Source: Streptomyces sp. NBC_01478 (GTDB lineage Bacteria; Actinomycetota; Actinomycetes; Streptomycetales; Streptomycetaceae). Taken from it: a DNA stretch of 64,000 nt. Of the stretch, positions 2,356 to 15,688 are shown piece by piece. Within the stretch, counting starts at the first letter, position 1; each line of letters opens with the position of its first letter. The translations under genes and the position numbers were made by a program. The notes beneath the pieces were generated by a model. That model was not told where the DNA came from, did not search any database, and worked only from the letters and a program-made list of their open reading frames with translations. The stretch is from contig NZ_CP109444.1 in NCBI RefSeq assembly GCF_036227225.1, positions 7,111,501-7,175,500 on the forward strand. Direction: 5' to 3'.

Positions 2356-3449
<1,094 letters not shown>

Positions 3450-3471
3450 CGTTCCGTTTCCGACGTTTCCC

Positions 3472-3510
3472 GAAGGTCCCCGGTAGCCGATAAGGCGGCC
3501 GGGGACCTTC
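3472..3510. terminator. Bidirectional terminator between mdh and the convergent conflict cassette
   Basis: Perfect 12-bp inverted repeats at 3472-3483 and 3499-3510 (GAAGGTCCCCGG and its complement) with a 15-nt loop lie between two convergent genes, 22 bp from each stop codon. Confidence 0.75.
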
Positions 3511-3532
3511 GTCGTGCCGTGGGTCAGGCGGG

Positions 3533-6500
3533 TCAGGGTCGGACGACCAGCTCCGCGAGGTGCAGCAAGGCGTTCGTCGTCGCCACCCGCAACTGGTCCA
3601 GCTCCCAGCGCGTCGTGCGCAGCGCGCTGTCGAAGGGCACGCGCACGATCCGGTTCGGGCGGATGCCCAGCCGCCGGACGAAGCCCGCGTGCTGGAGCCC
3701 CGTGCCGGTGGGGCTGCCGGCGGGCTGGGTGGTCACGAGGATCGCCTCGTTGGCCAAGTGGCCGCGGCCTCGCTCCCGTACCGCGCCGAGCATGCGCGCG
3801 GCCCCGTCGAGGAACCAGTCGGCGGTGCCGGAGCACAGGATCAGTTGGTCCGTGTGGTCCAGGACCACCTCCGCCGACCTGTCCAGGTTCTGCGGCGACC
3901 AGTCGGTGAGCACGAACGCGTAGTAGGGCGCGGTGTGTTCCAGCGCGCGCGAGTACTCCTGCGCGTGCAGGGGGTTCGGGCCGTAGCGGCCCGAGCGGTG
4001 GGCGACCACGTCGAGGCCGGACGCGAGCGGTGTGGCCAGCGCGCGCACGGCGTCGTAGGACGGGTGGGGCGGCAGGTCGGCGAGGTCGCGCACGGTGCCC
4101 GGGTTGCGGTCGCCGAGGAACTCGTCGAGCGCGCCCTCCGACGGGGCGCCGTCGAGGGCCAGTACGGGCTCGCCCCGCACCGTCGCGAGCAGGGAGCCCA
4201 GCGCGACCGTCGTCGTGGACCGCCCGCTGTGGTGATAGGCACCGAGCAGGGTCAGCCGCCTGCTGTACGGCAGCGGAACCCGCAGCCGCTCCAGGCGCGC
4301 CGCCATCTCCCGGCGGCCCGAGCCGAAGCGGGGCAGCCGCAGAGGCGGCGGTCCGGCGCGGTCCCCGGCCGCCCGGGGCACGGTGAGCGGAACCGGGGCC
4401 GCCGGGCGTGTGCCCCCGCCGGTCCGTACGGCGGCGGTCTGCGGGCCGGGGGTCCGGTGCTGGGCGATGTAGCGGGCCAGCAGGTCGGCGATCTCGCTCG
4501 CCGTCGGCCGCTGTCCGGGATCGGCGTCGAGGCAGCGCAGCACCAGTTTCCGCAGGGACTCCCAGGTGCCGCCCTGCCACAGATGCATGCCTTCGGACAG
4601 GCCCGCCAGGCGCAACCCGGCCTTGGTGCTGATGAGTTGGAGCAGTCCGCCCAGCGAGCGGATGTTGTCCGCCGCCGTCGGGGCCGGGCCGGGGCCCAGA
4701 TGACGTCCGTCGACGGCGCAGTCCGAGAGCCCGCCGAGGACCACGGTGCGGCGCAGCACGTAGACGCCGTCGGCGTTGAGATCCGCCAGGACCAGACCCG
4801 AGGCGTGGCACAGGGCGAGCGCGCTGGCCAGGTGATAGGCGACGAGGAGCCCGCGCAGCGTGTCGAAGGGGGCGGACCGCGACCGGATCGCCTCGTTGAC
4901 GAAGTCGACGAGCTGCGGCGGCCGGGCGAGCGGCGCCTCGCTGTCCGAGATCAGCGCCATCGCGATCCACGGCGGGGAGTCCTCGAACCCGGTGCCGAGC
5001 AGCGCGGGCGCGTACGGCCCCTGGAGCCGGGCCAGCGCCTCCGCCTCCACCTCCAGCAAGCGGGAGTTGGTGGCGGGCAGGTCCGGCCGCGGCACCCGCA
5101 GCACGGCTTCCGCGCCGTCCGTGGTGACGGCCCGGTAGAGCACCGTACGGCGGCCCCGGCGTCGTCCGCGCAGTTCGTACGGGCCGAGCCGGACGGGGTC
5201 CTCGGTGGTCAGCGGCCCCCAGTCGTCGGCCGGCCCGGCGTCGACGAGCCGCTCCTGCAGAGCCGGCGGTATCTGGGACGTGCGGTCGAAGGACACTCCG
5301 AACCGCGCGAGCAGCCGGCGTTCCACACTCGTGAACGGCTGGTGCGAGGTGGGCAGTTGGGCCGAGCCGTCCGGGTGGGCCAGCCAGGCGGGGAAGTCCG
5401 GGGAATTTCCGGCCAGTTCACTCAGGCGGTGGCCGATCAGCCGCCCGGTGCGCAGGAGTTCGGCCTGCGGCACCGCGTCCAGCAGCACCGCCTTGGACTC
5501 CTCCGAGAAGTCGAACACGCGGTGCTTGGCGGGCAGCGGACCCGGTACCGGTGCCGGATGCGGGCGGACCAGACCGCCGAGGAACACCTCCGCCAGATGC
5601 GAGGGCCGCGCCGCCAGCACCTCCCGCTGCACCAGCCGCATCACCGGCACCGACAGCGGGGACACGGCCGCGAGATGGGCGGCGAGCCGGTACGCCTCCG
5701 GAGTGGCCGCGTCCCGGAAGTGCTGGGCGCTGCCCACATCGCGCGAGGCGGCGACGGCGCCCTGCCGGCCGGGGCGGGTCAGCAGCGGCAGTTCCGCGGA
5801 GGTGCCGGGGGACGCGAGCAGATGCGCCCAGGCCCGCAGCGACACCGCCGTCGGCTCCAGCACCGCCACCGGCAGGCCGTCGAACGCGCCCAGGCCCGGC
5901 GGCAGTACCGGGTCGGAGATCTCCCAGGACGTGTTGGCGCCGCCGATCCGCCGGGTGGTGATCTGCCAGTGCTCGGCGGCGATGCCGGACGCCTCCCACA
6001 TCTCGGGCGGCAGGGTGTGCAGCACCGCGACCGGACCGTGCGCCGCCCGCGCGGCGAGCAGGGCGTGCATCGGGCCGGCCCGCCAGGCGGCGCCCATGCC
6101 GTCGCTGACGACGAGGAGGAGGGTGCGGCCCGAGGGATCGTTGACGGTGCTCAGCGGCAGCTCGGGGCTGTCGGGCCGGAACGGGCCCGCGTGCAGACGC
6201 GGCCGGCGTCCGCGCGTGTCGAGGCCGAGGACCCGGGTGGAGGCGAACGCGCCCAGGCGTTCCAGCAGGACCCTCAGCTCGGCGCCGAGCCGGTGCCACA
6301 GCAGCATGGACAGGCCGTCGTCGACGAGCAGCACCAGATGCAGCCAGCGCTCCCGCACCGGGCGCTGCACCACGTCGGGCAGCCCGGTCTCGGCGAACTG
6401 GGTGGCGGTGCGCTCCTCGTCGATCTCCAGGCGGTGCCGGCTGTCCAGACGGCGCCTGAGCGGACGTAGCGCCCGGCTGACGGCCAGTTCGTCGCCGAGC

Positions 6501-6862
6501 GCCTTGCCCTCGGGCACCCGGACCGGCATGGCCCTGCGCGGTTCCGGTCCGGCCGGCCCGGACCGCGGGGCCGGGGTCTGGCGGGCGGCCGCGTACAGGG
6601 TCGGCGGGATGAGGTCCGGCAGGTCCGGGTCGTCGGGGTCGGGCGGCTGCCCGTCGGCGGGCAGGTCCGGCGCGGGGGCGGGCGGCGGGGCGGGGTGCCG
6701 GTCGGCGGACGGTTCGGGGCGCAGCGGCGCGTCCTCGCCCACGGGCAGCCTGCGGGCCAGCCACAGCACGTCGAGGATCTGGTCGGCGTCCAGGTCGTGG
6801 CCGCAGGCCGCCAGGACCCGCAGCGCCTCGCCGAACCGCTCCTCGCCGCCCGCCACGGTCAC
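3533..6862 (-). CDS. SAV_2336-N / vWA-like / protein-kinase-like / MinD-like fusion protein
   Basis: A 1109-residue protein, the last gene of the four-gene cassette. In order: a helical N-terminal domain (residues 1-42) resembling SAV_2336 N-terminal regions; a Pro-rich linker; a vWA-like domain from about residue 170 (LVLLVDDGLSM, a degenerate MIDAS, then LLLVVSDGMG); a region typical of this family (SVPVMRLVQREVL, RPSHLAEVFLGGLVR); a protein-kinase-like domain at about 555-800; and a MinD/ParA-like domain at about 866-1109. The kinase part seems inactive: the catalytic loop reads LADLNADGVYVL, no DFG is seen, and the beta-3 lysine appears replaced. The P-loop is also atypical (SGRSTTT, no GK). 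GTG 6862 overlaps the AAA+ stop by 4 nt. A frame opening earlier, at 7726, is a shadow inside the AAA+ gene. Confidence 0.8.
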   Translation of the reverse strand: MTVAGGEERFGEALRVLAACGHDLDADQILDVLWLARRLPVGEDAPLRPEPSADRHPAPPPAPAPDLPADGQPPDPDDPDLPDLIPPTLYAAARQTPAPRSGPAGPEPRRAMPVRVPEGKALGDELAVSRALRPLRRRLDSRHRLEIDEERTATQFAETGLPDVVQRPVRERWLHLVLLVDDGLSMLLWHRLGAELRVLLERLGAFASTRVLGLDTRGRRPRLHAGPFRPDSPELPLSTVNDPSGRTLLLVVSDGMGAAWRAGPMHALLAARAAHGPVAVLHTLPPEMWEASGIAAEHWQITTRRIGGANTSWEISDPVLPPGLGAFDGLPVAVLEPTAVSLRAWAHLLASPGTSAELPLLTRPGRQGAVAASRDVGSAQHFRDAATPEAYRLAAHLAAVSPLSVPVMRLVQREVLAARPSHLAEVFLGGLVRPHPAPVPGPLPAKHRVFDFSEESKAVLLDAVPQAELLRTGRLIGHRLSELAGNSPDFPAWLAHPDGSAQLPTSHQPFTSVERRLLARFGVSFDRTSQIPPALQERLVDAGPADDWGPLTTEDPVRLGPYELRGRRRGRRTVLYRAVTTDGAEAVLRVPRPDLPATNSRLLEVEAEALARLQGPYAPALLGTGFEDSPPWIAMALISDSEAPLARPPQLVDFVNEAIRSRSAPFDTLRGLLVAYHLASALALCHASGLVLADLNADGVYVLRRTVVLGGLSDCAVDGRHLGPGPAPTAADNIRSLGGLLQLISTKAGLRLAGLSEGMHLWQGGTWESLRKLVLRCLDADPGQRPTASEIADLLARYIAQHRTPGPQTAAVRTGGGTRPAAPVPLTVPRAAGDRAGPPPLRLPRFGSGRREMAARLERLRVPLPYSRRLTLLGAYHHSGRSTTTVALGSLLATVRGEPVLALDGAPSEGALDEFLGDRNPGTVRDLADLPPHPSYDAVRALATPLASGLDVVAHRSGRYGPNPLHAQEYSRALEHTAPYYAFVLTDWSPQNLDRSAEVVLDHTDQLILCSGTADWFLDGAARMLGAVRERGRGHLANEAILVTTQPAGSPTGTGLQHAGFVRRLGIRPNRIVRVPFDSALRTTRWELDQLRVATTNALLHLAELVVRP

Positions 6863-7809
6863 ATCGCCCCGGTCAACTGGTGCAGTACGGCGTCGAGCAG
6901 CCCCTCCGCGTTCAGGTCGACGCCGCCGGTGCGCAGGAACACCGCGTTGAGCAGTTGGTCGGTGGCGAGTTCGCCCGGGGCACGGCGGCGCAGGAACGCG
7001 TCGATCAGGTCGTCCGCCGCGCGCAGCGCCTCCTCTCCCAGGTGCGCCTCGACGATGGCCCGCAGCCGCTCCTTGTCCGGCACCGGCAACTGGAGCCGGA
7101 TGCAGCGGCGCAGGAACGCGGGCGGGAAGTCCCGCTCGCCGTTGCTGGTGATGACGACGACCGGGAACTCCGCGCACTGGACGAGCCCTTGGTGCACCTG
7201 GACGGTGCCCCCGTGGTCGTAGGTCTGCACCTCGACGTCGGCCATGTCCTCGGGCAGCCGGGTCAGTTCCGGGATGTCGAAGACGCCGTCCTCGAAGACG
7301 GTGAGCAGGTCGTTGGGCAGGTCGACGTCGCCCTTGTCCATCTCGTCGACGAGCAGACAGCGCGGGGTGGCCGACGGCACCAGCGCGGTGCCGAGCGGGC
7401 CGAGCCGGACGAACGTGCCGATGGACGGCTCCCGTTCGCCCGCGTCCCGGCTGAGCGTCGTCTCGCGCAGCCTGCCGATCGCGTCGTACTGGTAGAGGGC
7501 GTCCTTGACGGTGGAGCGGCTGTTGACCGGCCAGCGCAGCAGCTCGCCCAGCCGCAGCTCGTGCGCGACGGCGCGGGCCAGCGACGACTTGCCGGTGCCG
7601 GCCGGTCCGGTGACCAGCAGCGGACGGCGCAGGTGCAGCGCGGCGTTGACGACGTCCGCGTGCTGCCGCTCGATGAGGTACGGCAGTTCGGGGCGCAGCG
7701 CCGGCACCGGTGTGAAGCGGCGCCACGGCGGGGCGGACGGCAGCGCGACGGCCCTGGGGACGCCGTCGCCGCGGAAGAGGCGCCAGTCCGCCTCGGGGGC
7801 CGATGTCAT
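6859..7809 (-). CDS. MoxR-type AAA+ ATPase
   Basis: A 316-residue ATPase. It has Walker A GPAGTGKSS near residue 70, Walker B CLLVDEMDKGDVDLPNDLL near residue 153, and a sensor-1-like VVVITSNGERDFPPAFLRRC region. This is the MoxR/RavA pattern of ATPases that remodel partner proteins, usually with vWA proteins. Here the partner is probably the vWA-like fusion encoded next. Its ATG overlaps the protease stop (ATGA, 7806-7809), and its own stop overlaps the next start (GTGA, 6859-6862), implying tight translational coupling. It belongs to the predicted vWA-MoxR-VMAP conflict class. Confidence 0.88.
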   Translation of the reverse strand: MTSAPEADWRLFRGDGVPRAVALPSAPPWRRFTPVPALRPELPYLIERQHADVVNAALHLRRPLLVTGPAGTGKSSLARAVAHELRLGELLRWPVNSRSTVKDALYQYDAIGRLRETTLSRDAGEREPSIGTFVRLGPLGTALVPSATPRCLLVDEMDKGDVDLPNDLLTVFEDGVFDIPELTRLPEDMADVEVQTYDHGGTVQVHQGLVQCAEFPVVVITSNGERDFPPAFLRRCIRLQLPVPDKERLRAIVEAHLGEEALRAADDLIDAFLRRRAPGELATDQLLNAVFLRTGGVDLNAEGLLDAVLHQLTGAM

Positions 7810-9962
7810 GCGCTCTCCTGTGGTTCGGTCAGTTGGAGCCGGGGCACGGTGCGGTCGGCGTCGGCCCAGGCGAGGACCGGCCGGCCGGGGAACTCGGGCC
7901 GGTTGGCCAGGGCGTCCGCGCGGTAACTGCGCACCCCGTCGGGCAGTTCCCGGGTGGCGACCTCCGCCATGTGCTTGACGGCGTGCGACCGCCCGTCCGC
8001 ACTGCGGTCCCACACCACCACGGGTATGCCCAGGACGAGACACGTCTGCACGATCCGGTCCCGTGCCGGACCCGGGGTCACGTCCACGGAGACGCGGACC
8101 GTGTCGAGTTGGTTGAGCAGCGTCGGATAGAGCGAGTCCGGGTCGGTGGACTCGTCGACCAGGAACGTCCGCCCCGAGTCGAGCCGGCTCCACCGGGTGC
8201 GCCAGTGGGGCAGGAACCGCCCGTGCCGGCGCAGGAGTTCGGGGCAGTGCACGACCAGCGGGAACTCCACGCCGAGCACACCGGGCACGAGTTCGCCCGG
8301 CACCCGTGCCTTCCACTCGTCGACCGGCAGATCGAGACTCTTGCGGTCCACGAGCACCTCGACCAGCGGCGGCCGGGCGTCCTTGGCGTCGGAGGTGAGG
8401 GAGGTGACGACCCGCAGCACCTCCCTGGCCGCCTCCGGCGCCGAGTACGATCCGACGCTCTCGGCCGACACCCGCCTCGGCCCGGAGCCCTCGTCGCACC
8501 AGATGCCCAGCCTGTGGCGGCCGCGCTCGGCCCGGGTCACCTCCACCAGGACCCGCCCGCGCGTGGCCCGGTCCGGTACCGAGCGGGCCCACACCTTGGC
8601 GTCCCAGCGCCGCTCGTCCAGGGCGGCCTGCGCGACGCCCAGCCGCGAGGTCACCCCGTTCGCCCACAGGCGCAGTTCCGACTGCTGGGGCTCCACAGAG
8701 AGCGCGGCGACGTACTCCATGACCCGCAGCAGCGCCGGCACCCTGGCCTCCCCGCCGGTGGAGCGGCCGTCGCCGGGGTGTGCCTCCAACTGGTCTAGCA
8801 GCGCGTCGAGATCCTCGCCGTCCGGGAAGACCGCGAGATGCGGCAGCGCGGCCCGCACCGCCTCGGCCAGCCGTCCGAGCACGGCGGGGTCCAACAGCCG
8901 CAACCGCTCGCGCAGTTCGACGTACTCCTGCGGGGTCAGCAGCTTGGCGGAGCGGACCAGACCGGCCACGGCCAGCACGCGCCGGGAGGCGCCGCCGGGT
9001 TCACGGCGCAGCACCGCGGCGAGCGCGGCCAGGGCCCGTGGATGCGCGAGCAGGAAGGAGGCGAACTCCTCGGGCGTGGGCGGCGTGACGTCGCTGCCGT
9101 ACCGGACACCGCACGCGCGGGCCAGCCGACGGCCGAACTCGACGCGTGTGTTCCCCGAGGGCAGCAGGTCCGCGACGAGGTCCGCCAGCACCCCGAACGC
9201 CGGGTCCTCGGGGTCCACGGGCTCGGGCGACAGCGCGTCCAGGGCGCCCAGCGGGCGCAGTTCGGCCTCGACGCGCTGCCAGGGGATGGCCCAACTGCGC
9301 CGGGTCATGTCCTGGGGGCTGTGCGGCAGCCGGGCTCCGGAGTCGGGGTCCCGGCCCGGCAGGAAGGCGGCGGCCACGAGGCCGACCACGGCGCGGTGGG
9401 AAGGGGACCAGAGGGGGCCGCCGCTGTAGCCGGGGCCGACGGCCATGCCGGTGGGCGCTCCGTCGAGGTAGCCGACGGGGCCGGCGAGCAGGGTGACGGT
9501 GAGGTCGGCGTACGTGGCGTCGGCGCCGCTGCCGTGCCACGCCCGCACCTTCTGGTCCCGCGTCATCGCGGTCCTGCGCGGTGGTGCGGGCATGTCGCTC
9601 GCCACCGCTTCGAGCCGCAGCACCGCCAGGTCGCCGAGCCAGGTGACGGCTCCGGCGAGCACCTTCCCGCCGTTCTCGGAGCGTGGCGGAATCCAGTGCT
9701 CGATCTGCGCGTAGTGGCGGTTGAAGCCGAGCGTCCCGTGTACCTCGACGGGGATCGCGTCCCGGTCCGGAGCACGCGACTCGAACAGGGAGCGCCCCAG
9801 CGAGTCGTTGACGACATGGGCGCAGGTGAGCACGGTGTCGGGGCCGATGACCAGGCCCGCTCCCGCGATCGTGCCGTCGTCGGTCCGCCGCACGGTCACG
9901 ACGTGGTGGGAGTTGACGGCGTGCAGGGCCGTCCCGGCCAGCAGGAACCAGCCCATGCTCAC
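7806..9962 (-). CDS. Trypsin-like serine protease fused to a VMAP-C-type domain
   Basis: A 718-residue protein. The N-terminal protease domain has all three catalytic positions: TCAHVV (His near residue 45), DLAVLRL (Asp near 111) and GPGYSGGPL (Ser near 177). There is no signal peptide, so it should be cytoplasmic. A helical middle region (about 270-460) leads to a C-terminal domain (about 470-718; LVEVLVDRKSLDLPVDEW, then FPGRPVLAWADADR) that resembles the VMAP C-terminal domain of MoxR-vWA systems. GTG 9962 is preferred because it forms a GTGA overlap with the upstream stop, like the downstream junctions; ATG 9956 is the alternative. Confidence 0.82.
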   Translation of the reverse strand: MSMGWFLLAGTALHAVNSHHVVTVRRTDDGTIAGAGLVIGPDTVLTCAHVVNDSLGRSLFESRAPDRDAIPVEVHGTLGFNRHYAQIEHWIPPRSENGGKVLAGAVTWLGDLAVLRLEAVASDMPAPPRRTAMTRDQKVRAWHGSGADATYADLTVTLLAGPVGYLDGAPTGMAVGPGYSGGPLWSPSHRAVVGLVAAAFLPGRDPDSGARLPHSPQDMTRRSWAIPWQRVEAELRPLGALDALSPEPVDPEDPAFGVLADLVADLLPSGNTRVEFGRRLARACGVRYGSDVTPPTPEEFASFLLAHPRALAALAAVLRREPGGASRRVLAVAGLVRSAKLLTPQEYVELRERLRLLDPAVLGRLAEAVRAALPHLAVFPDGEDLDALLDQLEAHPGDGRSTGGEARVPALLRVMEYVAALSVEPQQSELRLWANGVTSRLGVAQAALDERRWDAKVWARSVPDRATRGRVLVEVTRAERGRHRLGIWCDEGSGPRRVSAESVGSYSAPEAAREVLRVVTSLTSDAKDARPPLVEVLVDRKSLDLPVDEWKARVPGELVPGVLGVEFPLVVHCPELLRRHGRFLPHWRTRWSRLDSGRTFLVDESTDPDSLYPTLLNQLDTVRVSVDVTPGPARDRIVQTCLVLGIPVVVWDRSADGRSHAVKHMAEVATRELPDGVRSYRADALANRPEFPGRPVLAWADADRTVPRLQLTEPQESA

Positions 9963-10348
9963 CCCGCGCCCGGTGCCGTCGTGCCTCCGTCGGCCCGGGG
10001 TGGCTGCCATGTCGCGGTGACCGTGAGATGCGCCTGTCCGCCGCCGCTCACGATCCCGAACTTCAGGTCGTGCCCGACCTGTACGCCGAACGTCACGCTC
10101 ATCTCGCTCGGCGGCTCCGGTACGGCGTTGACGGTGCCGTGCACCTCCTGGAGCAGGACGCCGAGCGGGGCCAGGGCACTGCGCAGGGCACCGGTCGCGA
10201 AGTCCGCGACGCCGCGCCGCCCGGCGGCCACGGGCACCGCCGTCCCCATCCCCGCGGGGAGATCGTCGTCCCGTTCGGAGGCCGCGCCGGGCGGCGCGGG
10301 AGAGAGCAGGAACCGTACGGGCGTACCGTCGTCGAACTCGGACTGCAT
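9959..10348 (-). CDS. Trypsin-co-occurring (Trypco1 / CU044_2847-like) protein
   Basis: About 129 residues, first gene of the cassette. It begins with a short beta-rich segment (SEFDDGTPVRFLL) and ends with a block (VTFGVQVGHDLKFGIVSGGGQAHLTVTATW) that resembles the C-terminal strands of CU044_2847/Trypco1 proteins. Those small proteins are known to sit beside trypsin-like and NTPase genes of predicted conflict systems. Start uncertain: ATG 10348 fits the family N-terminus but lacks a clear ribosome site; a TTG at 10378 with GAGGCGGG close upstream would add 10 residues. Its stop overlaps the protease start by 4 nt. Confidence 0.65.
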   Translation of the reverse strand: MQSEFDDGTPVRFLLSPAPPGAASERDDDLPAGMGTAVPVAAGRRGVADFATGALRSALAPLGVLLQEVHGTVNAVPEPPSEMSVTFGVQVGHDLKFGIVSGGGQAHLTVTATWQPPRADGGTTAPGAG

Positions 10349-10546
10349 CGCGGTGACCACGTCAACATTGTGGACCAACCCGCCTCATTAGACAGCGAGT
10401 TCACAGCTCCTGATCGCCGCCTCCGGCTGTTTCGCCGTCACAGGTCTGCACGGACCCTGTCCCGGTTTGCGACGAAACATGATCGTTCCTCTTTTCGCCA
10501 CTACCGTCACGAGCAGTACAGGGTGGTGCGATTCGGGGGTTTCGTG

Positions 10547-11344
10547 ATGAGCGACTGGGACGGCTTCGGGACCGGGCGCGGGCCGAGCGAGGAGAGAGGG
10601 CAGGCGGCCTGGTCGGTGTGGTCGACGGCGGAGACCCAGACCTCGCTGACCCCGCCCCCGTGGGTGTCGCCACCGACGCCCGTCCCTGCTCCGGCGCCAG
10701 CCCCGACTCCCGCGCCCGCACCCGGCCGCCGGGCCTGGCGGGTGGTCCTCGGGGTCGTCGTCGCGGTCGTGCTGGGCGCGGGTGCCGGCGGCGGCTTCTG
10801 GTACGTCACGCACGAGCGCGCCGCCCGGGACCATGTGGCCGGGAGCGGGAGCACCGGCGGGAGTGGGAGCGGGAGTACGACCGGGCCCGGATCGTCGTAC
10901 CGCACCGCCCAGGACCCCACCGGCTACACCCTCGACATCCCCCGTGGCTGGACCCGCGCCCAACGGCAGGGCGCGAAGGCCCCGGTGGTCTCCTACGACT
11001 CCCCGGACGGAACCCGGCGACTGCAGATCTTCCGCGTCTCCGAGAACTCCCCGGCCGAGTCCCTCGACCTCGCCGAGAACGACCCCGGCTACGGATTCGC
11101 CCGGCAGCCCGGATACCGCGTCCTCGGCCGCGCCTCCGGTCCCACCTGGGCCGAACTCACCTACCGCTACGACGACTTGGGCCATGGCGGTCGTCGGGTG
11201 ATCGACCACCGCTTCCAGGCGGCGGACGGCTCGCTCTACGCGATCCGGTCCAGCGGTCCCGAGTCCCTCGACCCCGCGCTGGTCCGTACGCCGCTCACCA
11301 CCGCGATCGGTTCCTTCTGCCCGACGGGGGCGAACTGCGGGTAG
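10547..11344 (+). CDS. Membrane-anchored protein with extracellular domain, unknown function
   Basis: A 265-residue protein. The cytoplasmic N-terminus is Trp/Pro-rich with PAPAPAP-type repeats. One transmembrane helix lies near residues 63-87, followed by a Gly/Ser linker and an outer domain of about 150 residues (GYTLDIPRGWTR, then LQIFRVSENSPAESLDL) ending in two cysteines (FCPTGANC). Similar outer domains occur behind the transmembrane helix of some Streptomyces Ser/Thr kinases, but no kinase is fused here. It starts at ATG 10547 behind GGGGG at 10535-10539 (GTG 10544 also possible). It diverges from the conflict cassette across about 200 bp, so a shared control region is possible. Confidence 0.6.
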   Translation: MSDWDGFGTGRGPSEERGQAAWSVWSTAETQTSLTPPPWVSPPTPVPAPAPAPTPAPAPGRRAWRVVLGVVVAVVLGAGAGGGFWYVTHERAARDHVAGSGSTGGSGSGSTTGPGSSYRTAQDPTGYTLDIPRGWTRAQRQGAKAPVVSYDSPDGTRRLQIFRVSENSPAESLDLAENDPGYGFARQPGYRVLGRASGPTWAELTYRYDDLGHGGRRVIDHRFQAADGSLYAIRSSGPESLDPALVRTPLTTAIGSFCPTGANCG

Positions 11345-11379
11345 ACGGGAGGGGGTTCTACTCCAGGCGGTCAACTCCA

Positions 11380-11399
11380 GGGGGTCTACTCCAACCCCC
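11380..11399 (+). terminator. Weak hairpin between convergent genes
   Basis: GGGGGT at 11380-11385 pairs with ACCCCC at 11394-11399 around an 8-nt loop. It lies 36 bp after the membrane-protein stop and overlaps the 3' end of the convergent siderophore-interacting gene. Confidence 0.3.
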
Positions 11400-12075
11400 G
11401 CTTCCCCGGCGCCCAGAACGGCTTCGTGAGGACGGAGCGCCGGTCCCAGCCCAACTCCCGTACGAGCACCTGCCGGACGGCCTGTACGGTACGGGCCTCC
11501 CCGGCGACGTAGGCGACACCGCCCGGCTCGGGGGCGAGGTCCTGTACGGCCGCCGGGAGTGAAGTCCCGCCCCTGGTCAGCCAGTTGAGGCGGTCGGAGT
11601 GGGCCAGCGGCAGCCGGTCCCGGTCCGACTCCGTCTCCACGGCACCGGAGACGCGCGCCCCCTCGGGCAGCGCGGCCAGCATCGCCCCGAAGGCGACGGA
11701 GGCCGTCTCCTCGCCGACGAAGACATGGTGGGCGGCGTCAGGACGCAGGGTGAAGGTGCCCTCGGGCCTGCGCAGACGCACCTGCTCGCCGACGCCGACG
11801 CTCTTGCCCCAACGGGCCCCGGGTCCCCCCTCGGAGTGGTCCAGCACGCACAACTCGACGGCGCCGGACGGGTCGTAGCGCCACACGGAGTACGTCCGCA
11901 GGGTCAGCCCGCCGACCAGGACGCGGACCTGCCGGCCGGGGCGGACGTCGAGCCCGGTGAGGGCGTCGCCCTCGATGCGCAGCCTGCGCATCCGGGCGGT
12001 GACGGGTTCGGTCGCGGTGACGGTGGCGCGGAGGGTCAGCAGGTCGAGGACGGGGTTCAGGAGGGCGGTGGGCAC
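11386..12075 (-). CDS. Siderophore-interacting protein (ferric-siderophore reductase type)
   Basis: A 229-residue flavoprotein of the SIP/ViuB type that reduces imported ferric siderophores to release iron. The N-terminal FAD-binding barrel carries RTYSVWRY (the usual RxYT/S flavin motif), and GGPGARWGKSVGVGEQV is the typical phosphate-binding loop region. The C-terminal NAD(P)H half has HHVFVGEETASVAFGAML and a GEARTVQAVRQVL segment. GTG 12075 has GAGGAG 5 nt upstream. The protein is slightly short for the family (250-280). No siderophore cluster is visible nearby. Confidence 0.85.
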   Translation of the reverse strand: MPTALLNPVLDLLTLRATVTATEPVTARMRRLRIEGDALTGLDVRPGRQVRVLVGGLTLRTYSVWRYDPSGAVELCVLDHSEGGPGARWGKSVGVGEQVRLRRPEGTFTLRPDAAHHVFVGEETASVAFGAMLAALPEGARVSGAVETESDRDRLPLAHSDRLNWLTRGGTSLPAAVQDLAPEPGGVAYVAGEARTVQAVRQVLVRELGWDRRSVLTKPFWAPGKRGLE

Positions 12076-12134
12076 GGGGGCTCCTCAACTGGGTCGCGCG
12101 TGAGGGGAGTTGATGATCGGCCGCGACGGGATGG

Positions 12135-12176
12135 ACGCGATAGTACGTGTTTCCCGTCGAACGCGATAGTGCGTGT
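12135..12176. repeat. Pair of 16-bp direct repeats upstream of the siderophore-interacting gene
   Basis: ACGCGATAGTACGTGT (12135-12150) recurs with one change at 12161-12176, a period of 26 bp (about 2.5 helical turns). The pair lies 60-100 bp upstream of the GTG of the siderophore-interacting gene and just before a LysR remnant. It could be a regulator site; it does not look like the usual DmdR/DtxR iron box. Confidence 0.4.
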
Positions 12177-12234
12177 GGTGGTGGTCCGGTCGCGGTGTCC
12201 GACGATCACGAGTGCGGTGGCCGCGAGGGCGATC

Positions 12235-12405
12235 ACCAAATCGTCTCGCGGCGCGGCAAGCCGCACGGTCCGGTCGACGAGCGGCTCGCCGAACTCGGCC
12301 TGAAACGCCGGGTGGTGGGCACCGGCGGCACCTTTCCCGCCTCGCTGTTCGTGCCGCGCGACACCGGCCTGATCGGCTACTGGACCGTGCCGCCGGCCTG
12401 TGTAC
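12235..12405 (+). pseudogene. Remnant of a LysR-type regulator
   Basis: One frame reads VSRRGKPHGPVDERLAEL followed by a GLKRRVVGT-type stretch and FPASLFVPRDTGLIG. This is the pattern of the effector-binding domain of many LysR regulators. Upstream there is no HTH domain and no start codon with a ribosome site, and downstream the frame runs antisense through the 3' end of the MarR-GNAT gene. Roughly 55 of the expected 300 codons remain. The call is by pattern only; a search with the fragment would settle it. Confidence 0.55.
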
Positions 12406-13345
12406 GGGAGTTGCCGGGCGAGGAGGGTCGGCGGGCGCCGGCCAGCCGCTTCTCGAACCAGTGGGACGCGTAGACGTGGTCGACGTAGGCCGGGATCTCC
12501 GCGTACCCGCACGCCCGGTACATCGCCTGCGCCTCGGTGAGCGTCGCGTGCGTGTCCAGTCGTACGACGGTGAAGTGGTGCGCCACGGCCGCCTGTTCCA
12601 GCTCCGCGAGGATGCGGCGGGCCAGGCCCAGGCGGCGGGCCTCGGGGTGGACCCAGACGTGCCGGATCTCGCCCGCGCCGGGCTCCAGCGTCCGTAGCGC
12701 CCCGCACGCCACCGGCCGCCCCTCCTCGTACGCGACGAAGAACGCGCCCGCGTCCCTGGTGACCTCCTCGGGCCGTACGAGATCGGTCTTGTCGAAGCCC
12801 TCCGGGAAACGGGCGTCGATGTCGGCGGCGTAGGCGTCCAGGCAGGCGCGGGCGTCCTCGGTGGCTCCGTCCACCAGGGTGACCGTGATGCCGGCCAGCC
12901 GCAGGAGGCGTCGGGCGGTCGCCAACGCGTCGGTGAGCTCGGCGCGTTGGGGTGCGGTGAGGGTGGCGAGGAGACCGGCGGCGAGCGCGTCGGCACGGCG
13001 GTGCTGCTCCTCGACCTCGGCGCGGCCGGCCCGGGTCAGCTCGATCAGGCGCAGCCGGGTGTCGTGCGGGGGCACGGTCAGCCGGACCAGGCCCTGCGCC
13101 TCCAGGGACTTCGCCATCCGGCTGAGATAGCCCGCGTCCAGGGCGAGCCGGCCACGCAGTTCGCGCAGCGAGACACCGTCACCGATCTCGAAGAGCAGCC
13201 GGGCCTCGCCCAGGGGGCGGTCCTGGCCGAGGTAGTGGTCGTCGAGGGCGCCGATGCGGCGGGTGAAGTAGCGGTTGAAGCGGCGGAAGGCGGCGATGTC
13301 CTCCGGCGGTACCGGTTCCGTCGGGGTGTCCGTGGCTGGCTCCAT
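12377..13345 (-). CDS. MarR-GNAT fusion: winged-helix regulator with acetyltransferase domain
   Basis: A 322-residue protein with two domains. Residues 15-145 form a MarR winged helix (FNRYFTRRIGALDDHYLGQ, then LSRMAKSLEAQGLV and DTRLRLIELT). Residues 155-305 form a GNAT fold with the acetyl-CoA loop around VHPEARRLGLARRILAEL. Such bifunctional proteins are widespread in actinobacteria; the acetylated substrate is unknown. The last dozen codons (GNSRTQAGGTVQ) read through the antisense LysR remnant, so the native C-terminus may have been altered. The ATG lies only 4 bp from a palindromic operator, which points to autoregulation and a leaderless or nearly leaderless mRNA. Confidence 0.85.
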   Translation of the reverse strand: MEPATDTPTEPVPPEDIAAFRRFNRYFTRRIGALDDHYLGQDRPLGEARLLFEIGDGVSLRELRGRLALDAGYLSRMAKSLEAQGLVRLTVPPHDTRLRLIELTRAGRAEVEEQHRRADALAAGLLATLTAPQRAELTDALATARRLLRLAGITVTLVDGATEDARACLDAYAADIDARFPEGFDKTDLVRPEEVTRDAGAFFVAYEEGRPVACGALRTLEPGAGEIRHVWVHPEARRLGLARRILAELEQAAVAHHFTVVRLDTHATLTEAQAMYRACGYAEIPAYVDHVYASHWFEKRLAGARRPSSPGNSRTQAGGTVQ

Positions 13346-13349
13346 AGTT

Positions 13350-13367
13350 CTTTGACTTTAGTCAAAG
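13350..13367. promoter_or_regulatory. Palindromic operator of the MarR-GNAT gene
   Basis: CTTTGACTTTAGTCAAAG is an 18-bp dyad with a single central mismatch. It ends 4 bp before the start codon of the MarR-GNAT gene, where it would overlap the promoter -10 region. A MarR dimer is the natural ligand. Confidence 0.7.
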
Positions 13368-13420
13368 GAGTCGGAGGAGTCCATGGTGGTGCGGCTTGTC
13401 CGCCCCTGCTGTGCCTCTGT

Positions 13421-14305
13421 TCAGTGGGTTTCTTCGAGTTGTTCGGGCAGCAGGGCGATGGCGGCGTCGACGAACTCCCGGACCAGGCCGACGGCCCGCC
13501 CGGAGGGCCAGGCCACCGCGACATGGTTGGGGCCGAGGTCTTCGACCGGGATCGCCCTGATGTCGGGTCTGGTGTAGAAGTTCGCGGTGGACGCCGGGAT
13601 CACGGCGATCCCTTGTCCGCCGGCGACGAGTTCGAGTTTCTCCTCGACACTGTGGATCGCCGGCGCCGGGCGGCGCTCACCGGTTCGCAGCTCCACCGCG
13701 ATGTCGCGCCATTCGGGGACGGCGTCGGGGTTCTGAAGGAGGTGATCGGCCGCCAGGTCGGCGACCCGCACGGTCTCCTTGCCGGCGAGGCGATGGGACG
13801 AGGCCACCATGACGAGGCGCGGTTCGGTGTAGAGCGGCCTGATCTCCAGGCCTGCCGGGTCGATCGGCAACCGGACGATGCCGACATCCGCGCGGCCGTC
13901 GTGGAGCACCTCCACCTGGTCGTGCCAGCCGGTGCGCAACATCCGCACGTCCAGCCCGGGGTGGCGCTCGCGCAGCAGGCGGACGACGGCGGTCAACGTG
14001 ATTCCCGGCATGAACCCGATCGTGAAGCGGGTGACGCTCTCGCCCGCGGCGCGTACCCGCCGCAGCAGTGCGTCCGCGCCCGCCAGCAGGGGCCCGGCGT
14101 CGTGGAGGAGTTGTTCGCCCGCCGGTGTGAGCACGGTGCTGCGGCGGTCGCGCGTGAACACGTCCACGCCCAGCTCGCTCTCGAGCATCCGGATCTGCCG
14201 GGAGAGCACGGGCTGGGTGATGTGCAGGCGCTCCGCGGCGCGTCCGAAGTGGAGCTCCTCGGCCACCGCGAGGAAGTAGCGAAGCTTGCGCAGATCGACG
14301 TCCAT
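13421..14305 (-). CDS. LysR-family transcriptional regulator
   Basis: A 294-residue protein of standard LysR length. The N-terminal winged helix (LRKLRYFLAVAEELHFGRAA, then LHITQPVLSRQIRMLE) is complete, followed by the two-lobed effector domain (FTIGFMPGITL, ADVGIVRLP, GQGIAVIPAS). It starts 17 bp after the epimerase gene on the same strand, so the two probably form one transcript. This is unusual, as most LysR genes diverge from their target. The inducer is unknown. Confidence 0.9.
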   Translation of the reverse strand: MDVDLRKLRYFLAVAEELHFGRAAERLHITQPVLSRQIRMLESELGVDVFTRDRRSTVLTPAGEQLLHDAGPLLAGADALLRRVRAAGESVTRFTIGFMPGITLTAVVRLLRERHPGLDVRMLRTGWHDQVEVLHDGRADVGIVRLPIDPAGLEIRPLYTEPRLVMVASSHRLAGKETVRVADLAADHLLQNPDAVPEWRDIAVELRTGERRPAPAIHSVEEKLELVAGGQGIAVIPASTANFYTRPDIRAIPVEDLGPNHVAVAWPSGRAVGLVREFVDAAIALLPEQLEETH

Positions 14306-14322
14306 GCGGTTCCTCCGGGTGG

Positions 14323-15180
14323 TCAGCCGCGCGCGATGGTGGCGAGCGGGTCACCGTGCGCCGGTGCCCAGCCCAGCTCGCGGCGGGCCTTGGCCGAGGT
14401 GAGGCGCTGGTCCAGCGCGAACGCGTCCGCGACGGGCCCCATCTCGGCGCGGGCCTGCTCCAGTGTGATCGAGACCGTCTTGCCGTCGAGTCCGGCACCG
14501 CGCGCCGCCGCTTCGGCGACCTGCTTCATCGTCGGGTGGCCCTCGCCGACCCCGATGTAGACCGATCCCGCCTTCGCCGAGAGCGCGGCGACGTAGAGCG
14601 TGGCCATGTCGTCGATGTGCACCAGCCCCCACCGGTTGGCGCCGTCACCGATGTACGGGACAGCACGCCTCATTTTGCCTGGCGCGATGAAGAAATGCTC
14701 GATCAGCCGGTTGTCGCCTCCGTAGAGCAGCCCGGGTTGCACGATGACGGGGCGACCGCCTTCGGCGGCACGTGCCGAGACCGCGTCCTCGACCGACCTG
14801 CGCCATGCCACCACGCCGGGTGCGTTCCACGGCGCGGTCTCGTCCTGTACGCCGTCGGTGTCGCCGTAGACCCAGGTGCCGCCGGTGTGCACGTAGGTTC
14901 CGGCCCCGACGCCGTCCTGCATGGCCGTGGCCGCGGCGAGATCCATGTCCGCGGAGCTGGCCTGCGCGAGGTGGATCACCGCCTCGGCGCGTGCGGCCGC
15001 GTGGTTGAGCACGTCCAGGTCGGTGAGTCCACCGCGCACCTCGGCCGCCCCGGCGCCCGTCACGGCCTCTGCCGCCTGCTCGCTGCGCGCCAGCGCCTCC
15101 ACGGTGTGGCCTCGTCGCACCAGTTCGGCGATCGTGGCCCGGCCGATGTAGCCGGATCCGCCCGTCAGGAAAATCCTCAT
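14323..15180 (-). CDS. NAD(P)-dependent epimerase/dehydratase (extended-SDR-like)
   Basis: A 285-residue Rossmann-fold protein. The cofactor motif TGGSGYIGRATI is at residues 6-17, followed by YVHTGGTWVYGD and a WRRSVEDAV segment in the active-site region. The usual YxxxK is not obvious, so it may be an atypical short-chain reductase or an NmrA-like sensor. LLYGGDNRLIEHFF and WGLVHIDDMATLYVAAL match the C-terminal part of NAD-dependent epimerases. It is the first gene of a two-gene unit with the LysR regulator. Substrate unknown. Confidence 0.8.
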   Translation of the reverse strand: MRIFLTGGSGYIGRATIAELVRRGHTVEALARSEQAAEAVTGAGAAEVRGGLTDLDVLNHAAARAEAVIHLAQASSADMDLAAATAMQDGVGAGTYVHTGGTWVYGDTDGVQDETAPWNAPGVVAWRRSVEDAVSARAAEGGRPVIVQPGLLYGGDNRLIEHFFIAPGKMRRAVPYIGDGANRWGLVHIDDMATLYVAALSAKAGSVYIGVGEGHPTMKQVAEAAARGAGLDGKTVSITLEQARAEMGPVADAFALDQRLTSAKARRELGWAPAHGDPLATIARG

Positions 15181-15251
15181 GCCATTCCTCGCTGTCCATC
15201 AGGTTCGCTGTTGATCAGGTTCGACTCCACCGTGCGGCCTGATCGCCCGTC

Positions 15252-15369
15252 CCGTCCAAGACCTGTTTCGTGCTCTGTGATGCCCGCGGGGCATGACGCG
15301 CCCGTGAAGCGAGCTGAGCCGCGTTGATGCCCTGCGGGCATCGCAGGGGACGTAAAGGGTCTTGGACGG
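15252..15369. repeat. MITE-like imperfect inverted repeat, about 118 bp
   Basis: Left arm 15252-15300 and right arm 15320-15369 are imperfect complements over about 49 bp. The outer 12 bp (CCGTCCAAGACC and its complement) are perfect, and the inner GATGCCCGC/GCGGGCATC portions match closely. About 19 bp of loop remains and no transposase is encoded. Long paired arms with perfect tips suggest a miniature mobile element or a strong hairpin. Confidence 0.6.
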
Positions 15370-15688
15370 GGCGGCCCCGGCAGATCGACAGTGGACGTGC
15401 CGCGACGGCGGGCCGAGATCCCGGTTCCCGTCCGTCGCCGGCGTTCTGATCGACAAGCCGAGACCGAGACACAGCACCGGCTCCGCGCCGCGATCCGCAC
15501 CGCGTGACGTCGATCACCCAAGCCCCCCACCCTGACGCGGCTTTTGTCCCCCTGTTCAGTGATCCGGCCCACTTTCAGCCATGGATCGTGCATGCATACG
15601 GACGTCCCCGGGCAGGCGCTCGCAGCCCCCGAGAGTGACAGTTGGGTGACACCGGGGCACTGAACAGGAACGGAAGGCGCAAGCGATC
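15370..15688. other. Intergenic region before the betaine operon
   Basis: No convincing gene is seen here. The region must hold the promoter of the operon starting at 15689. A short palindrome TGCATGCA (15589-15596) and a GGAAGG ribosome site at 15672-15677 are the only signals I can point to; no BetI-like operator was recognised. Confidence 0.4.

Follow-up and report, generated by a model that had tools for sequence, protein, structure and literature searches.

Gene content and family assignment

We analysed a 64,000-nucleotide stretch of Streptomyces sp. NBC_01478 (NZ_CP109444.1, positions 7,111,501 to 7,175,500; hereafter the window), in which four minus-strand open reading frames (ORFs) encode a Trypco1 protein, a trypsin-VMAP protein, a MoxR ATPase and a vWA protein of SAV_2336 type that carries kinase and MinD domains. 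Re-reading the ORFs bore out the placing that a preliminary description, made from the sequence alone, had given for this four-gene cassette. The Trypco1 gene (9959..10360; minus strand, as are all cassette coordinates) encodes 133 residues from a probable GTG start at 10360. The VMAP gene (7806..9962, 718 residues) combines a trypsin-like protease domain (9234..9917, residues 16-243), a helical middle region and a C-terminal VMAP-C domain (7857..8519, residues 482-702). It is followed by the genes for the MoxR AAA+ ATPase (6859..7809, 316 residues) and for the vWA component (3533..6862, 1,109 residues), in which a SAV_2336 N-terminal and vWA region (5411..6787, residues 26-484) precedes a tail made of a pseudokinase domain (4448..5200, residues 555-805) and a degenerate domain of MinD/ParA fold (3539..4273, residues 864-1108). 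Whole-chain models were of middling confidence (mean predicted local distance difference test score, pLDDT, of 73.5 for the VMAP protein and 67.7), and residues 35-171 and 366-545 of the vWA-protein model mostly had a pLDDT below 50.

The preliminary description had proposed searches with hidden Markov models as a check, and these matched the expected families: Trypco1 (PF19493, E-value 7.9e-18, 65.3 bits against a cut-off of 24.6), which accompanies the trypsin-VMAP protein, as Trypco1 or Trypco2 does trypsin-type VMAPs in known systems; Trypsin_2 (PF13365, E-value 1.9e-8) and VMAP-C (PF20028, E-value 3.8e-37, 128.8 bits against a cut-off of 27) in the VMAP protein; AAA_5, over its cut-off, in MoxR; and SAV_2336_NTERM (NF041121, E-value 6.3e-108) in the vWA protein. 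No Pfam model reached its cut-off in the vWA, kinase and MinD domains of the latter; we identified these through NCBIfam, by aligning residues and from the predicted fold. VMAP residues 254-460 are fast-diverging and mostly helical in the model, with a VMAP-M0 score of 16.5 bits against a cut-off of 25.9. Fold searches were filled by trypsin, kinase and ParA domains, the trypsin domain having an HtrA-type fold, and a search by sequence for solved-structure relatives of VMAP-C gave nothing better than an E-value of 0.89. The database names of homologues already read VMAP-C, SAV_2336 and CU044_2847 family, and every row with an organism name (best 120 per protein) was from Streptomyces, on which ground we speak of a Streptomyces-type genome.

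The accessible text of Kaur et al. (2020; PMC7159879) characterises the predicted VMAP ternary systems (vWA-MoxR subsystem 1) by their gene order, VMAP-C, two N-terminal motifs in MoxR, the metal-site aspartates of vWA and variable tails. We compared these features across 23 cassettes including that of the window; 20 of them were newly added as the top-scoring close MoxR relatives and are not a random sample, and cassettes L033-L036 (MoxR 67-70% identical) were excluded from the counts. The order VMAP, MoxR, vWA was found in the window and in 23/23 placed cassettes. For the MoxR motifs, defined as WxhapG and PsWRxa, the W, F and G of WRLFRG and the P, P, W, R and F of PPWRRF were kept in all 23. 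In the vWA domain, the metal-site residues D181, S185 and D254 (the aspartates lying on strands 1 and 4) were invariant in 41/41 family members and 23/23 cassettes. For the N-terminal motif of the vWA protein, [D/E]xxx[D/E]xxxa, the window has D27 (D or E in 31/41), D31 and W34 (both in 41/41), the aromatic residue coming one position early.

With these features present, save for that vWA motif and the VMAP-M class, the cassette belongs to a known kind: the family and motif results agree with the vWA-MoxR-VMAP identity proposed earlier, and the cassette is almost certainly a VMAP ternary conflict system, accessory to its Streptomyces-type genome, that occupies varied chromosomal sites in relatives. 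We rejected an assignment to MADS or another PADLOC system, the kinase and AAA similarity being weak (14.0 bits for the MAD6-type kinase against a cut-off of 460).

Gene overlaps and the start of Trypco1

As previously described, each gene junction of the cassette is a 4-nt overlap (GTGA at 9959-9962, ATGA at 7806-7809 and GTGA at 6859-6862). Since RTGA words occur at chance frequency in the window (653 against an expected 647), the overlap word by itself is no proof and conservation decides. With starts chosen automatically, the VMAP/MoxR overlap was kept in 21 of the 23 cassettes and all three overlaps jointly in three (the window, L079 and L085). This pattern makes translational coupling of VMAP and MoxR probable and gives no support to the fixed ratio of all four proteins that had been read from the overlaps.

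The cassette had been drawn up to 10378, where a TTG was taken as the Trypco1 start; its extent otherwise holds, but the GTG at 10360 is probably the true start, because a box of the CACAAT type precedes an in-frame Trypco1 GTG or ATG in 20/23 cassettes. In the window this box lies at 10367..10372 on the minus strand; across cassettes it reads [C/G]A[C/T]AAT and is spaced by 6 nt (n = 14) or 7 nt (n = 6) from the start codon, two spacings which show that it is no conserved run of codons. Shuffled upstream DNA gave an expected count of about 0.02 against the 20 seen, using a pattern picked after alignment and related sequences that inflate the count, though the 23 cassettes form about 13 flank groups. 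Under the -10 rule for leaderless transcripts, the box likely serves as the -10 element for such a transcript, beginning at GTG 10360. Besides the make-up of the shuffle control, it tells against this that the box is not general: it was seen by eye in L034 alone of seven more distant Trypco1 cassettes (L033-L035 and L039-L042).

Catalytic residues and divergence

Residue alignment confirmed that the catalytic triad and the MoxR Walker motifs are intact: H49, D111 and S180 of the trypsin domain were invariant in 52/52 homologues and 23/23 cassettes, and MoxR keeps T-G-K-S in Walker A and D-E in Walker B in 23/23. Active kinases carry a catalytic Lys with HRD and DFG motifs, and active MinD/ParA ATPases a deviant Walker A, KGGxGKT. 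In the vWA tail, the kinase Lys is replaced by Arg in 40/41 family members and 23/23 cassettes; the window kinase keeps the HRD Asp and has Gly for the DFG Asp, which is lost in 10/41 overall. The window MinD P-loop reads HHSGRST at the place of KGGxGKT, and its second Lys is Arg in 41/41 family members and in 21/23 cassettes, the other two having Lys and Cys. The working kinase and MinD implied by the preliminary description are not supported, both domains being degenerate in the lineage. Since most or all relatives lack the catalytic residues of the tail, the tail is unlikely to be an active enzyme, and by its residues the trypsin domain is, besides MoxR, the sole domain of the cassette with an intact catalytic set.

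Median identities to the window among 13 close relatives were 88% for MoxR, 79% for the C-terminal extension, 78% for vWA and 73% for VMAP-C, then 64% for Trypco1, 64% for the kinase, 58% for trypsin, 58% for MinD, 57% for VMAP-M and 39% for the kinase-MinD linker (residues 806-846), which makes the switch slow and the protease and tail fast. Such rates bear on a release model proposed by Kaur et al. (PMC7159879, accessible text), in which the VMAP middle region senses the invader, MoxR and vWA restructure the complex, and cleavage of the vWA protein by trypsin frees the tail domains as diffusible, possibly dominant-negative or decoy effectors. VMAP-M, among the fastest-diverging parts, and the poorly conserved linker both speak for it; the freed degenerate domains would nevertheless have to act, and the sequence fits release and a bait role of the tail equally. 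We find release doubtful, less likely than the bait reading set out below.

Host relatives of the vWA tail

Searched against its own 12.1-Mb genome (E <= 0.001, 51/51 candidates scored), the MinD domain had one relative besides itself, at 30% identity and an E-value of 3.7e-23, over an alignment of 265 columns that starts before the fold proper. This relative is a 1,007-residue, proline-rich MinD-type ATPase with an intact KGGVGKT, and its gene adjoins those of EccE (E-value 4.5e-78) and EccB (E-value 9.9e-52) in a type VII secretion system (T7SS) locus. We take it, provisionally, to be SCO5717 or EspI-like; the word SCO5717 was not found in the best 8 of 235 literature matches. A profile built from 21 tails gave two matches in the same genome at E <= 1e-5, the tail and the host ATPase (8e-59; 66/220 candidates scored), and found a non-cassette match at an E-value of 1.2e-58 or better in 24/25 same-genus genomes. 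Several of the genome searches scored part of the first-look candidates, at most 7 per genome for MoxR (295 genomes), 66 for the MinD profile, 6 for the tail of L037 (see below) and 37 in one further search. From 29 genomes with a profile match we compared the neighbourhoods of 20 host-ATPase loci in 19 genomes, in which the P-loop was intact in 20/20 and both eccB and eccE lay within the 20-kb stretch in 13/20. The MinD domain of the tail is a degenerate version of a single conserved host ATPase, whose own P-loop is intact. Adjoining ribF and the T7SS-locus ATPase gene, a 1,170-residue protein (L123:37-3549; G000:C1:8399036-8402548) has a trypsin-like PF13365 domain and, by eye, an NTPase-like part; Pfam gave nothing beyond PF13365 at E <= 0.001.

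In a sister cassette, L035 (genome G034, MoxR identity about 70%), an EccCa-like domain (E-value 1e-15) fills the MinD slot; its best non-cassette relative in G034 is EccC (E-value 3.2e-11). This domain is degenerate as well, the EccC P-loop GATGSGKS reading GGTDAGRR. The tail of this vWA protein (L035:6483-10460) consists of a kinase, here over the Pfam cut-off, the degenerate EccCa-like domain and TPR. In L036 we found kinase and TPR, with no MinD match.

The kinase domain of the window is closest to the AfsK model (E-value 1.3e-5), and the nearest kinase of its own genome (E-value 1e-6) has intact HRD and DFG motifs and, by eye, a repeat-rich C-terminus. With the T7SS-locus ATPase, both tail domains thus resemble host signalling proteins, as would suit a regulatory complex that controls the host's own kinase signalling or that ATPase by dominant-negative binding and regulated proteolysis. 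The patchy presence of the cassette among genomes and its differing sites, given in the next section, and its fast divergence suit conflict better than core regulation, and we regard such a regulator as improbable.

The window cassette is one of three VMAP systems in its genome, and their vWA tails differ: kinase-MinD here, NTPase-trypsin-VMAP-C in the second and FxSxx-TPR in the third. In the second system (L037:10843-15102; G000:C1:7694842-7699101), the 1,419-residue vWA protein ends in an NTPase, a trypsin-like domain and VMAP-C. By eye its trypsin-like domain has GSAGGP instead of GxSGGP, and the neighbouring trypsin-VMAP protein (L037:7821-9746) has GASGGP; the tail is apparently a dead trypsin-VMAP fused on. 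It occurs at full length in this genome alone of 150 genus genomes, with one partial match in G102. The third system (L038:5786-12292) comprises an EAD2-VMAP-M0-VMAP-C protein, MoxR and a vWA protein with the TPR tail of FxSxx-COOH systems.

Distribution and insertion sites

A close MoxR relative (E <= 1e-110) was found in 48/295 genus genomes, the own genome included. VMAP-C matched in 35/61 relatives and in 30/37 same-genus genomes, being absent from 7/37, and in 0/14 control genomes. The preliminary description had held that conservation of the four genes as core housekeeping genes across Streptomyces would speak against a conflict role; this patchy presence, together with cassette-free loci, leads us to reject housekeeping genes. 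It also bears on a reading in which the cassette, as a chaperone-protease of RavA-ViaA or HtrA type, serves the stress response by handling damaged proteins and takes no part in conflict. In favour of that, MoxR-vWA pairs elsewhere are chaperones (accessible text of PMC7159879) and the trypsin domain has the HtrA-type fold; the accessory distribution, the lack of VMAP-C matches in the control genomes and tails made of degenerate enzymes render it highly improbable.

The cassette adjoins mdh (malate dehydrogenase; 2460..3449, plus strand), the left boundary of its insertion site, in 6/23 cassettes (the window, L031, L032, L080, L085 and L087), and in 4 of these the fetched stretch also contains a betaine-aldehyde dehydrogenase gene, beyond the cassette. 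We found 35 mdh loci and fetched 20 for comparison, G007 and G032 being known cassette holders; none of these 20 loci from other genomes had a cassette beside mdh (L101 covers about 4 kb on that side). The gene that flanks the window cassette on its right (10547..11344, plus strand) comes directly after mdh in L099 and L102, and in a blastn comparison of L099 with the window, similarity ends at the mdh stop codon (3449) and starts again at 10492. Across the genus, the interval from mdh to the betaine-aldehyde dehydrogenase gene (3450-15688 in the window) varies in length, from about 0.3 kb in L109 up to many kb, and in the genes it holds; it is likely an insertion hotspot. Before mdh, at 81-2133, lie two tandem ORFs with N-termini that are similar by eye and resemble a helix-turn-helix (LPDEL..VR.F..QL..L.DR.GLS); the second has a relative near mdh in 18/20 comparison loci.

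Cassettes at the mdh site were not monophyletic in FastTree trees. The window copy grouped with cassettes from other sites, with supports of 0.95 (VMAP, MoxR and vWA combined), 0.97 (VMAP) and 0.85 (vWA protein), the MoxR tree leaving this unresolved. The Trypco1 tree, unlike that of VMAP, places the window mostly with the mdh-site copies (0.85), which limits this grouping. Taken together, the trees are compatible with relocation, repeated insertion or exchange at the site. Site groups were defined by blastn of flanks of about 6 kb, in which diverged flanks could mask shared sites. From the differing sites and patchiness we infer transfer between genomes. No target-site duplication was seen at the cassette ends, the longest direct repeat being 8 nt (reached in 137/200 shuffles); an 11-nt inverted match at the ends was reached in 5/200 shuffles. 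A phage-borne cassette was considered and rejected, phage records holding 2 distant matches (E <= 1e-15, 34% identity). MoxR relatives occurred in 37/72,556 plasmid records (E <= 1e-40), which makes plasmids a possible vehicle. Streptomyces plasmids NZ_CP081497.1, NZ_CP109155.1, NZ_CP109035.1 and others carry such relatives, at 66-76% identity in the best five.

Proposed mechanism

Our preferred reading, to which we give a probability of roughly 0.45, takes the vWA tail as bait, vWA-MoxR as switch and trypsin as executioner. The pseudokinase and the degenerate copy of a host MinD-type ATPase would mimic host targets; an invader protein engaging them would lead the vWA/MoxR chaperone pair to remodel, at the cost of ATP, its complex with VMAP. 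This remodelling would turn on the trypsin domain, with Trypco1 perhaps licensing or restraining its activity, and the protease would then cleave invader or host proteins, halting the infected hypha. That the proteins form a complex, sense an invader, activate the protease or affect phages at all is, like the defence or self-killing role that had been suggested for the cassette, what we infer.

Three observations lead us to favour a tail that senses, as bait, and a VMAP protease that acts: the tail is degenerate, the protease is invariant, and the tail matches a host protein. Trypsin is taken as the executioner since it is the only intact catalytic domain besides the MoxR motor, and we count for this that its triad is invariant while the domain diverges fast (58% against 88% for MoxR). 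For the bait role we count the EccCa-like swap in L035 and the three different tails within one genome.

Several points weigh against a bait. One of the 23 relatives retains the Lys of the MinD P-loop, and the kinase family keeps the HRD Asp in 27/41 and the DFG Asp in 31/41 members, so that its kinase domain may still bind nucleotide. The lack of both eccB and eccE in the fetched 20-kb stretch at 7/20 host-ATPase loci makes the T7SS link of the mimicked ATPase partial; replacement by EccC is known from one cassette, L035; and the tie of the kinase domain to a particular host kinase is weak. The kinase and MinD tail occurs in 25/27 cassettes with MoxR at least 67% identical, steadier than a fast-changing sensor might be, and none of the 14 loci with MoxR 44-60% identical (L037-L050) gave a kinase or MinD match. 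Finally, the immediate flanks of the cassette are housekeeping genes, not a defence island.

The bait could also be an integrated decoy that guards a host machine: an invader attacking the real T7SS-locus ATPase would be caught on its dead copy, which is paired with the AfsK-like pseudokinase, and the VMAP trypsin would fire. In the sister cassette, the degenerate EccCa-like domain fills the same slot. We think this narrower version unlikely as it stands. Plant integrated-decoy immune receptors are switch proteins in which an inactive copy of a host target serves as bait; their proteins are unrelated to those of the cassette, and the likeness would be one of logic only, unproven here. With the tail traced to a single host protein, and a sister cassette bearing another secretion ATPase in its stead, the trigger is narrowed to a short list of candidates and sensing by the tail becomes testable. 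The promoter-like box and the cassette-free loci offer clean constructs and natural controls.

Comparison with known systems

In the accessible text of PMC7159879, VMAP ternary systems are reported to be widespread in multicellular bacteria, Trypco1 lies beside trypsin-VMAPs, and S/T/Y kinases are coupled to MinD/ParA or to winged helix-turn-helix domains. Tails with MinD and FtsK are filed there under cell division and called inactive, and decoy action is raised for inactive enzymes generally. Its main text, as far as accessible, contains none of the words "type VII", "ESX", "EccC", "T7SS" and "WXG". Our cassette shares with these systems the gene order VMAP-MoxR-vWA, Trypco1 by a trypsin-VMAP, the MoxR motifs, the vWA metal-site aspartates and a kinase-MinD/ParA tail whose enzymes are mostly inactive. 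We found no structural difference from the systems as described in that text; what is added is that the MinD domain here is traced to one conserved host ATPase. This tracing, the EccC replacement and the start-site box were absent from the PubMed Central (PMC) literature examined, so far as its text was accessible, and we found no experimental test of a VMAP ternary system among the open-licence PMC matches listed.

Genes for vWA-MoxR-VMAP also appear among the CARF-linked genes near type III CRISPR loci (accessible text of PMC10910872). In the VMAP systems linked to diversity-generating retroelements (PMC10907252, accessible text), the sensors are vWA-CLec proteins; in the model given there, sensing falls to the tail and the VMAP peptidase acts as effector. 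Unlike these, the four proteins of the window contain no C-type lectin domain and the tail is a pseudokinase with a degenerate MinD; no search was made for a reverse transcriptase nearby. Trypsin-VMAP, MoxR and vWA are common to both, and the tail-sensor model published for those systems is close to the one that we prefer here.

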